DNA of 38,663 nt. It comes from Thiomicrorhabdus sp. Lineage in GTDB: Bacteria; Pseudomonadota; Gammaproteobacteria; Thiomicrospirales; Thiomicrospiraceae. Each line of letters opens with the position of its first letter. Position 1 is the first letter of the stretch. Shown one piece after another: positions 1-3,585 of this stretch. A model generated the notes under the pieces. It had not been told where the DNA came from. It worked only from the letters and a program-made list of their open reading frames with translations, and did no database searches. The translations under genes were made by a program, and so were the position numbers. Where the stretch lies: the NCBI GenBank assembly GCA_015487015.1, contig WFQP01000092.1:1-38663 (forward strand). Reading direction: 5' to 3'.

Positions 1-827
1 ACCACAGCGAACACACGCCTTGGTACACGGGCGGTGCCCTTATGAACATACTGGAAAGCATTGACATTACGCCAAAAGAAATTGAGCAAGCGTTTCGTTT
101 TCCCGTGCAATACGTCAACCGCCCTCACCTCAATTTTAGAGGGTTTGCGGGAACCATTGCCTCAGGAAGCATTCAAGTGGGTGATCAAATCACCGTTCTG
201 CCTTCTCAAAAAACCACCAAAGTGGCCTCAATTGTCGAGCCATCGGTTAAAAAAGACAGCACCATCCCAAGTGCCTTTGCCACCATGGCCATTACCATCA
301 CCACTGAAGATGAAATCGACATTAGCCGTGGCGACTTACTGGTAAAAAGCAATGAACAAGCCCCCGCGCTTACCGACTCTGTACAAGCCACGCTTGTCTG
401 GATGCATGAAGCGCCAGCGCAACTGGGTAAAGAGTACCTGATTAAACACACCAGTCATAAAATCAAAGGACACATTGACACCATTGAACACATCATTGAT
501 GTCAATACCTTTGAGAAAAAAGCAGGCGAAACCCTGCAATTAAATGACATTGCCGTGTGTAATCTCACCTTAAACCGAGCCATTCCGGTCGATGCTTACG
601 ACATCAACAAAATCACCGGTAGCTTTATCATTATTGACCGCTACACCCATGCCACCGTAGGCGCGGGCATGATTACGCAAGCAAATCAGGCAACTCAGTC
701 AAACCAAAACGACACGACATCGGTTAAACGAGACTACTCTGACGCTGAAAAAGCACTCAATGCCCTTGTGTTAGAACACTATCCAGAGTGGGGAGCCAAG
801 TCGATTGATGAGATACTCGGAGATTAA
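1..827 (+). CDS. cysN: Sulfate adenylyltransferase subunit 1 (CysN), 5'-truncated by the window edge
   Basis: The frame is open upstream of the listed ATG at 42 (HSEHTPWYTGGALMNILESID...). The C-terminal EF-Tu-like domains (FRFPVQYVNRPHLNFRGFAGTIASGSIQVGD) match CysN. Confidence 0.93.
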   Translation, partial: HSEHTPWYTGGALMNILESIDITPKEIEQAFRFPVQYVNRPHLNFRGFAGTIASGSIQVGDQITVLPSQKTTKVASIVEPSVKKDSTIPSAFATMAITITTEDEIDISRGDLLVKSNEQAPALTDSVQATLVWMHEAPAQLGKEYLIKHTSHKIKGHIDTIEHIIDVNTFEKKAGETLQLNDIAVCNLTLNRAIPVDAYDINKITGSFIIIDRYTHATVGAGMITQANQATQSNQNDTTSVKRDYSDAEKALNALVLEHYPEWGAKSIDEILGD

Positions 828-830
828 TCC

Positions 831-1550
831 ATGTACGTAGAAACAAACAAACGCTCTCTTATCAAGGGCGTGAGTTGGCGCTTGCTCGCTACCACAACGA
901 CCATTATCATTGTCTATCTGTTTTTTGGACGATTAGACTTGGCCATTATGGCGGGCGCATTAGAGACCGTAGCTAAAATATTTCTATACTATGTGCATGA
1001 ACGTGGTTGGAATAAAATTGATTACGGTAAAAAACGCATTGAGCCATTTAACCTATGGATTATTGGCCTACCACTCAGTGGTAAAAAAGTATTGGCAGAT
1101 AAAGTGTACGAGAAACTTCTCAGCCTTAAAATTCCGTTAGAACGAATCGAAAGCCGAGAAGTGCGTAAACTACTGCCCGAAATAGGCTATGAACGAGATG
1201 ACCGCATACTGCACATAAAGCGCGTCGGATTTTTAATCAAAAAACTACAACGTCACTCCGTTTCAACCATTTGCTCTTTTGTGTCACCTTACCAAGAAGC
1301 ACGAGATACCGTAAATGAAATGACGGAAAATTATGTAGAAGTCTATATTGATGGCGATCCTGAGCAATACAAAACTATTCAAGAAGCAGGCTTTATTGAA
1401 AGTGTTGACCACACACAATTGGAGGATTTAAACCGTATCAGCGAAGACTACGATAAACCTTGCAACCCTAGAATTGTCATCAAACCCGATGAGAATTTAG
1501 ATGATGCCGTTGACCGCATTGTGAGCTATATTAAAAAGAATTTAGTGTAA
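831..1550 (+). CDS. DUF2061 membrane domain fused to a degenerate APS-kinase-like (CysC-like) domain
   Basis: N-terminal KRSLIKGVSWRLLATTTTIIIVYLFFG...AGALETVAKIFLYYVHERGW is DUF2061-like. C-terminal WIIGLPLSGKK...DDRILHIKRVGFLIKKL...FVSPYQEARD aligns with APS kinase. It starts 3 nt after the cysN stop. Confidence 0.8.
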   Translation: MYVETNKRSLIKGVSWRLLATTTTIIIVYLFFGRLDLAIMAGALETVAKIFLYYVHERGWNKIDYGKKRIEPFNLWIIGLPLSGKKVLADKVYEKLLSLKIPLERIESREVRKLLPEIGYERDDRILHIKRVGFLIKKLQRHSVSTICSFVSPYQEARDTVNEMTENYVEVYIDGDPEQYKTIQEAGFIESVDHTQLEDLNRISEDYDKPCNPRIVIKPDENLDDAVDRIVSYIKKNLV

Positions 1551-1611: not shown

Positions 1612-1648
1612 TTAAAAAAACCAGCCTATTTCAGCTGGTTTTTTTCTA
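1612..1648. terminator. Bidirectional rho-independent terminator between the convergent cysN operon and soxB
   Basis: AAAAAAACCAGC-ctatttca-GCTGGTTTTTTT hairpin flanked by A and T runs. Confidence 0.85.
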
Positions 1649-1671
1649 ATACAATCCTTTCATATTTTCAA

Positions 1672-3585
1672 CTAAGCCATTGTTCCTGGATATGCTTCAA
1701 TTCCTGGGTTACCTTTCACCCCTTTGAGTTTAGGGTGATTCACTTTTTTCAGCTTCATATCTGATTTATGATTGCGAAGATAATCCGCAGCCACATCCCA
1801 CATTAAACGACCATCACCCACCGCAGAAACTTGTGCCCAACCTGCTACACTGTAAGTTTTACTGGCATCCAATGGTGTGCCATCGTCTAAACGCATTTCT
1901 GAAATACGATTTCCTAATGAAGCATTGGGCTCACAAGTGTAGTCCATTCCTCCAAGACGTACCATATCGCCACCCGACTGTAGATACGGATCTTTTTGGA
2001 ATAAGTTCTCACAGATACCTTCTAAGATATCTTTCATTTGTGCGCCTGTTACTTCAGACTTATAGGTCTCACCATACGTCATCGATGTTTCATCCATCAC
2101 ACGTTCCATGGTAATCGTTTCACCGGCTAAAACAGAAGTACCCCAACGTACACCCGCCGACATTGCGATTTGCGTATCATGCTCTTCACGCAATGAATTT
2201 ACAATAATTTGATCCCATGTTCCCATAAAGTTACCACGACGATACAAGGTATCCTCTGCTACTGCTAACTCTTCGCCCATAATTTCACCGTAGGTTTTAC
2301 CTAAGCGGTCTTTATTGTAAGCACGAGATGGGTCTCTGGACTCAATAATATTGGTGTCATATTTCTTGGTATAAAGGTGTTTAATAAAAGTGTCCATCTC
2401 TGCATCGGCTGCCAATACATTTGAGAAGACAGGCAATAAGTTATAGTGAACGTCTCTTAATTTTCCGTTTTGAATGTCTAAATCCATTACGCCGACAAAT
2501 TTACCATTTGATCCCGCATTGGTAACATGACAAACGCCACCTTCAGGTGTTTTAACTGGAACCGTTTTTGCAACACCATCGTGAGTATGCCCACCAAAAA
2601 TAGCATCAATCCCATTCACACGAGAAGCCATCTTCAAATCAACATCCATTCCGTTATGCGAAATCATAACAATGGCTGCCACTTTCTCTTCTGCACGAAT
2701 TTTATCAACGGTTTCTTGCAGCGCGTCTTCACGTAAACCAAATGACCAATCAGGAAAGTTAGACTGTGGGTTTGCGTTGGCAGTACGAGGAAAGGCTTGT
2801 CCTACAACGGCAATTCGCTCGCCATTGATCACTTTAATGGTATAAGGTTTAAACGCTCGGGCTTCGTCTTCATCATACAAGCCCATACCTTGATGTTCAT
2901 CCACCATATCAAGGTAATCGTCACCAAATAAAGCATCTTCTTTAATACGAATATTTTGTGCTAAAAACTCGCCTTTAAATGCATTTAAATTCTTTAAAAC
3001 TTCCGCTTCGTGGTAGGTAAATTCCCAATGACCAGTCATCACATCCACCCCTAAAATATTCGAGGCTTCAACCATATCCATGCCGCGAGTAAACAAAGCG
3101 GTACCTGAACCATGCCACAAATCGCCCCCATCCATAGTTAAGGTATTCTCACGACCACCTGCTTGCTCACGTAACTTATCCAGCAACGTTTTAATGTGTG
3201 CAAAGCCCCCTACTTTACCGTACTGCTCAGAAGCATCTTGGAAATTAAGGTAAGAAAAAGCGTGTGCCAAAGGGGTGTTTTCTTTGACACCAATCTCTTT
3301 CAAAAGCTTAGTACCCACAACATGCGGAAGCTTGCCATAAGCAGGGCCAACGCCTAAGTTTACATTAGGTTCACGAAAATAGATCGGATTCAATTGTGCA
3401 TGCGTATCAGTAATGTGTAATAAACGAACTTTCCCTTTAGGGGGAAGGTTATAAATATCAGCCGTTGCTTTAGAGGTTGCGACATTGTTTGCCCCCCCCG
3501 ACATGGCACTTGCTGTGCCAGGTAATATTCCTGCGGCGGCAGCCATTGACATTACATGTAAAAATTCGCGACGGTTTAAAGACAT
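1672..3585 (-). CDS. soxB: Thiosulfohydrolase SoxB with Tat signal (SLNRREFLHVM)
   Basis: 637 aa; LLHITDTHAQLNPIYFREPNVNLG, TMDGGDLWHGSGTALFTRG and TGHWEFTYHE are typical of SoxB. Confidence 0.95.
   Translation of the reverse strand: MSLNRREFLHVMSMAAAAGILPGTASAMSGGANNVATSKATADIYNLPPKGKVRLLHITDTHAQLNPIYFREPNVNLGVGPAYGKLPHVVGTKLLKEIGVKENTPLAHAFSYLNFQDASEQYGKVGGFAHIKTLLDKLREQAGGRENTLTMDGGDLWHGSGTALFTRGMDMVEASNILGVDVMTGHWEFTYHEAEVLKNLNAFKGEFLAQNIRIKEDALFGDDYLDMVDEHQGMGLYDEDEARAFKPYTIKVINGERIAVVGQAFPRTANANPQSNFPDWSFGLREDALQETVDKIRAEEKVAAIVMISHNGMDVDLKMASRVNGIDAIFGGHTHDGVAKTVPVKTPEGGVCHVTNAGSNGKFVGVMDLDIQNGKLRDVHYNLLPVFSNVLAADAEMDTFIKHLYTKKYDTNIIESRDPSRAYNKDRLGKTYGEIMGEELAVAEDTLYRRGNFMGTWDQIIVNSLREEHDTQIAMSAGVRWGTSVLAGETITMERVMDETSMTYGETYKSEVTGAQMKDILEGICENLFQKDPYLQSGGDMVRLGGMDYTCEPNASLGNRISEMRLDDGTPLDASKTYSVAGWAQVSAVGDGRLMWDVAADYLRNHKSDMKLKKVNHPKLKGVKGNPGIEAYPGTMA

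Follow-up and report, generated by a model that had tools for sequence, protein, structure and literature searches.

Sulfate activation in bacteria is usually drawn as a soluble process, and APS kinases are dimers. Residue roles have been assigned for the APS kinase CysC of Mycobacterium tuberculosis, in which D480 represents the catalytic Asp, located 3.6 Å from O3' of APS (PMC4373884); according to work cited in that paper, the corresponding Asp is indispensable for the APS kinase of the mouse. Furthermore, fungal ATP sulfurylase features an APS-kinase-like domain, which is inactive and confers regulation by PAPS (PMC3734648, PMC3779200, PMC13213808). The gene analyzed here follows cysN in the genome of a sulfur-oxidising Thiomicrorhabdus, and its product is, with a probability of roughly 55%, best explained as a membrane-tethered pseudo-APS-kinase, representing a putative docking or regulatory subunit for the ATP sulfurylase CysDN.

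The gene is located at positions 831–1550 (plus strand) of the window, i.e., the whole analyzed stretch of 38,663 nucleotides, which corresponds to contig C92 of the source genome (1.98 Mb, 144 contigs, 85% complete). It is an open reading frame starting with ATG and encodes 239 amino acids, for which a reading of the sequence alone had proposed the fusion of a DUF2061 domain with two transmembrane helices to a CysC-like domain. Pfam matches above the respective cut-offs confirmed this architecture, with 62.3 bits for DUF2061 (PF09834, cut-off 23.1; residues 10–61, positions 858–1013) and 89.6 bits for APS_kinase (PF01583, cut-off 21.1; residues 72–218, positions 1044–1484). In line with this, the AlphaFold2 model of the single chain, built from a 23-sequence alignment and of moderate confidence (mean pLDDT 78.3, pTM 0.65), comprises helices at residues 10–32 and 35–64, followed by an alpha/beta kinase fold. 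APS kinases were on top of the Foldseek results against the PDB, with 2yvu being the best match (E 1.9e-12, probability 1.00, TM 0.84 by target); other matches were 7yq0, 1m7g, 4bzp and the ATP sulfurylase of P. chrysogenum (1m8p, 1i2d). The hydrophobic hairpin is flanked by positive charges family-wide, which agrees with the predicted membrane anchor and suggests that both hairpin ends, N and C, are cytoplasmic.

The fusion ATG was found 3 bp downstream of the cysN stop codon (825–827), so that the proposed adjacency to cysN holds. Positions 3–827 (plus strand) represent the C-terminal part of cysN, encoding the GTPase subunit of ATP sulfurylase (NCBIfam CysN). The 5' part of this gene is carried by contig C57, the end of which matches the first 151 bp of the window exactly. 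Joining both contigs yielded the operon order cysH-cysI-cysD-cysN-fusion, the fusion being the last gene, and in the related genome G046 cysH is preceded by cysJ. A hairpin with a U tract 3' of the operon (1614–1649, plus strand; folding energy −15.9 kcal/mol, z −5.8) is a probable intrinsic terminator; it is absent from the list of a consensus terminator scan, which gave a weaker minus-strand hairpin at 1569–1590. The operon is adjoined by a minus-strand gene of SoxB-like thiosulfohydrolase type (1672–3585), named from its sequence alone. A SoxB-like sequence likewise occurs 3' of the fusion in G046 (locus L022), and the Thiomicrorhabdus genomes G036 and G039 have other genes at this place.

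The CysH protein of the operon retains the CC...CxxC cysteines and passed the APS reductase model TIGR02055 (246.9, cut-off 235.3), but not the PAPS reductase model (151.6, cut-off 254.2). As CysH accordingly represents an APS reductase, the reductive route does not need PAPS, which fits an inactive kinase in this operon. Canonical CysC was not found in the source genome assembly (85% complete). A second cysD-cysN pair was observed on contig C100 (locus L122, 1702–3432), being about 97–99% like its counterparts in G039 and G040. In G039, permease-cysC-cysQ come directly after this pair, and C100 stops inside cysN. A normal CysC of the source genome may fall into the gap after this second cysDN, and the claim that the source genome has no real CysC was set aside given this possible assembly gap. 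Neither a canonical APS kinase nor a second cysDN was found in G036 (88% complete) and G046 (94% complete).

Active-site residues were mapped using 60 canonical CysC rows from the fetched loci and the functions assigned to individual residues of M. tuberculosis CysC (PMC4373884), the numbering of which was transferred solely by motif alignment via canonical CysC. The P-loop reads GLPLSGKK (residues 79–86, positions 1065–1088) in place of canonical GLSGSGKS, and ESREVR (residues 107–112, positions 1149–1166) replaces DGDNxR, both as pointed out in the sequence-only reading; the fold motifs listed there as remaining were also located, namely DDRxxHIKRV as DDRILHIKRV (123–132), FVSPYQEARD (150–159) and NPRIVI (212–217). 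The P-loop Lys is retained, and the two hydroxyl residues following it are substituted by K86 and V87, meaning that the Walker A pattern GxxxxGK[ST] is lacking in the window protein as well as in its Thiomicrorhabdus orthologues. Furthermore, the Mg-water Asp is replaced by E107, the catalytic-base Asp of the DGD motif by R109 and the lid Lys by A186, and the stacking Phe pair corresponds to Y120 and L200, with one aromatic residue gone. The Thiomicrorhabdus members in general have lost the lid Lys and a stacking Phe besides the Walker A hydroxyls. The Arg residues for the APS phosphate (R112) and for adenine (R125) are retained. With 90.8 bits, the protein stays below the apsK equivalog_domain cut-off of 138.7 (TIGR00455). 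Since the base, the lid Lys and the Walker A hydroxyls were lost together, APS kinase activity of the window protein is very unlikely, as judged from structure–function work on relatives, and these substitutions support the earlier verdict of a probably inactive protein. An APS-kinase fold without kinase residues is also what characterizes the inactive domain of the fungal type.

Three more Thiomicrorhabdus genomes harboring orthologues (G036, G039 and G046) share this P-loop and the R/E/R residues, the motifs GLPLSGKK and E[S/N]REVR being common to all four. Within the host family, the fusion was detected in 4 out of 63 genomes, all belonging to this one genus. Pairwise dN/dS values (NG86) for the APS-kinase part amounted to 0.067 between the window and G039 (residues 70–239), and to 0.01 (residues 70–139) and 0.033 (residues 99–239, dS near saturation) between the window and G046. 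With these ratios (0.01–0.07), strong purifying selection acts on the APS-kinase part, indicating that the eroded active-site region is kept, as expected for a new non-catalytic role and not for decay. A sequencing or assembly error was ruled out by the concordance of four genomes with synonymous divergence around the substitutions, and a decaying pseudogene was ruled out for the window gene by the dN/dS values and the intact frames.

The window protein turned out to be a member of a cross-phylum family and hence no local oddity. Full-length fusions were detected by profile search in 20 out of 298 Campylobacterota genomes, and a divergent fusion with DGHN in 1 out of 297 Bacteroidota genomes; no further full-length fusion was found among the matches listed for samples of 369 genomes of the host class and 299 genomes of the host phylum. 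DUF2061 (PF09834) was matched by 23 of 23 members of the family. The APS-kinase tree unites the 20 Campylobacterota and three Thiomicrorhabdus proteins in one clade (100/100), in which the Thiomicrorhabdus branch is long (1.31 changes per column). One common origin of all 24 members is compatible with the tree, though less firm (93/73). Transfer from Campylobacterota was considered in view of the shared clade and the long branch; as the Thiomicrorhabdus fusion operons are left unplaced by the CysN tree, no direction is claimed. Bacteroidota loci L142–L150 encode a short CysC type (about 177 amino acids) with an intact DGD and the HVKRVG motif common to the fusions; it scores nearer to the fusions than the usual CysC does and may be their nearest active relative.

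Throughout the family, the catalytic Asp is substituted, by Lys or Arg in 23 of 23 fusions and by His in the Bacteroidota member L141 (i.e., in all 24 full-length members), compared to Asp in all 59 canonical rows without a gap. Where canonical enzymes have DGDN, the Campylobacterota fusions carry DSKD or DSRD; GLP[LM]SGK[ST]T and the D478-, K562- and F576-equivalents are intact in 20 out of 20, and the R483- and R497-equivalents, the lid Lys and both aromatic positions are kept. Homologues with an intact Walker A, named in the sequence-only reading as a sign of a sequencing variant, do exist in these 20 genomes; they do not turn the window protein into a sequencing variant, since the catalytic Asp is missing there too.

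The intact positions (GLP[LM]SGK[ST]T, D478-, K562- and F576-equivalents) could be taken to mean that a substrate different from APS is phosphorylated, at least by the Campylobacterota members. However, the contacts for the adenine and phosphosulfate of APS are retained, which does not suggest a new substrate, and the window protein lacks any Walker A hydroxyl, making a changed substrate or mechanism highly improbable. Likewise, the Asp loss might be compensated and PAPS still be made at the membrane, as the Campylobacterota protein L071 (1501–2223) scores 160.9 against the apsK cut-off of 138.7. We regard this as scarcely credible, considering the essential role of the equivalent Asp in the mouse enzyme (as cited in PMC4373884), the presence of a normal cysC close to the fusion in 19 of 20 loci and the score of the window protein under the cut-off. 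The conserved Lys/Arg at the former base could also reflect altered chemistry. As TIGR00455 is passed without the catalytic Asp by L071 and also by L141 (Bacteroidota, 1492–2232; 177.1), automatic annotation will name such members APS kinases and can thus overstate PAPS capacity.

The residues kept in Campylobacterota also bear on a ligand-sensing regulator, the fold of which would bind APS or PAPS without turnover and feed back on CysDN or sulfate uptake. The Lys/Arg at the former Asp would be placed beside the 3' position, where it might accommodate the 3'-phosphate of PAPS; in the Campylobacterota proteins, Walker A and the R483-, R497-, K562- and F576-equivalents are kept, and a fixed K/R occurs at the Asp only. 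The fungal domain provides the nearest functional precedent (PMC3734648, PMC3779200, PMC13213808), and 1m8p was among the structural matches. However, the window protein is devoid of the lid Lys and a stacking Phe (A186, L200), its pocket may have lost the binding of APS or PAPS, and the window operon produces no PAPS; a sensor is considered unlikely. The eroded pocket of the window protein would favour docking, and the kept pocket together with the fixed Lys/Arg may be compatible with sensing in Campylobacterota.

The partner of the protein was deduced from gene neighborhoods. In Campylobacterota, 19 of 20 fusions are located directly after cysN on the same strand (gap of 117–507 bp between HMM hits), and 19 of 20 loci harbor a canonical cysC in the same orientation no more than 2.8 kb away, often adjoining the fusion. 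Exceptions comprise a fusion whose short contig lacks cysN, the sole cysN fragment residing on another contig, and a locus with broken cysN and cysC. In G653 (locus L136, 5405–8298), cysN and cysC are broken around the open fusion gene, which could be due to decay or sequencing errors. The usual orders are cysD-cysN-fusion-cysC-cysQ and cysQ-cysC-cysD-cysN-fusion, and several loci are embedded among nucleotide-sugar- and glycosyltransferase-like genes (types other than cys were read from sequence starts). For the Bacteroidota genome G866, the order fusion-cysC-sat was found, with sat being read from the sequence alone. In two further loci from Bacteroidota genomes, one open frame encoding tandem DUF2061 hairpins immediately precedes cysC (L171, 4589–4855; L172, 4865–5179).

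The frequent neighborhood of cysC, together with the G866 order and the dimeric nature of APS kinases, would also agree with a pseudo-subunit that heterodimerises with the nearby CysC and thereby brings it to the membrane. Against this, the fusion occurs without a canonical APS kinase in two Thiomicrorhabdus genomes of 88% and 94% completeness, and the stand-alone DUF2061 genes track cysN without CysC; heterodimerisation is therefore judged quite unlikely. Among the matches listed, 42 of 42 stand-alone DUF2061 genes are located 1.6–2.4 kb from cysN on the same strand, for example in the order cysK-DUF2061-cysH-cysD-cysN. In the phylogenetic profile against cysDN, the check proposed along with the sequence-only reading, cysN was present in 57 of 57 genomes with DUF2061 or the fusion, compared to 85 of 298 overall, a co-occurrence statistic that ignores shared ancestry. 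DUF2061 is also found with CysDN where an APS kinase is absent (Arcobacteraceae genome G428), and it thus points to CysDN. Taken together, the neighborhoods indicate that DUF2061 goes with CysDN and that, in the fusion, this association is extended by an APS-kinase fold.

Because of this gene order, a docking or regulatory role for CysDN is proposed, and the scaffold or regulator of ATP sulfurylase suggested previously would fit the order observed in three phyla, although gene order cannot tell docking from regulation, nor CysDN from CysC or a sulfate transporter as the partner. The pseudo-APS-kinase reading has its observed basis in the architecture, the lost catalytic residues, purifying selection, the gene order and the single main clade. 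The DUF2061 hairpin would hold the APS-kinase fold, no longer phosphorylating APS, at the cytoplasmic face of the inner membrane, where the fold would bind CysDN as its docking or regulatory subunit and, in Campylobacterota, probably also serve the real CysC encoded nearby. The putative benefit would be that APS is handed on near the membrane, or that CysDN is held back.

If true, bacterial sulfate activation would have a membrane-bound organiser, DUF2061 would gain a testable role, and the fungal inactive APS-kinase domain would have a bacterial counterpart on a separate membrane protein. A literature search, covering few subscription journals, revealed no description of the protein, no paper on DUF2061 together with adenylylsulfate kinase and none for COG3205. 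It is conceivable, albeit doubtful, that an undescribed pseudo-APS-kinase family recruits CysDN, alone or along with CysC, to the inner membrane, with DUF2061 being a general ATP sulfurylase docking module and the Lys/Arg site an APS/PAPS sensor.

Compared with known systems, the fusion shares its fold, about 27% identity and the sulfate-activation neighborhood with the APS kinase CysC (PF01583, TIGR00455), but differs by the N-terminal membrane hairpin and the replaced catalytic Asp in all members, the window protein additionally lacking the Walker A hydroxyls, the lid Lys and one stacking Phe. The bifunctional CysNC, e.g., of M. tuberculosis, likewise physically links an APS-kinase fold with the ATP sulfurylase GTPase; however, its kinase is active and joined to CysN, whereas the fusion is a separate, apparently inactive membrane protein encoded after cysN. 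Stand-alone members of the DUF2061 family (PF09834) feature the same hairpin and also reside in cys clusters, but comprise about 75 amino acids without the APS-kinase fold. The domain of P. chrysogenum ATP sulfurylase (1i2d/1m8p) resembles the fusion as an inactive APS-kinase fold serving ATP sulfurylase; in contrast to this covalent C-terminal part of a homo-oligomeric Sat-type enzyme, the fusion is encoded by a separate gene after cysN and represents a distinct membrane protein beside an ATP sulfurylase of the CysDN type.
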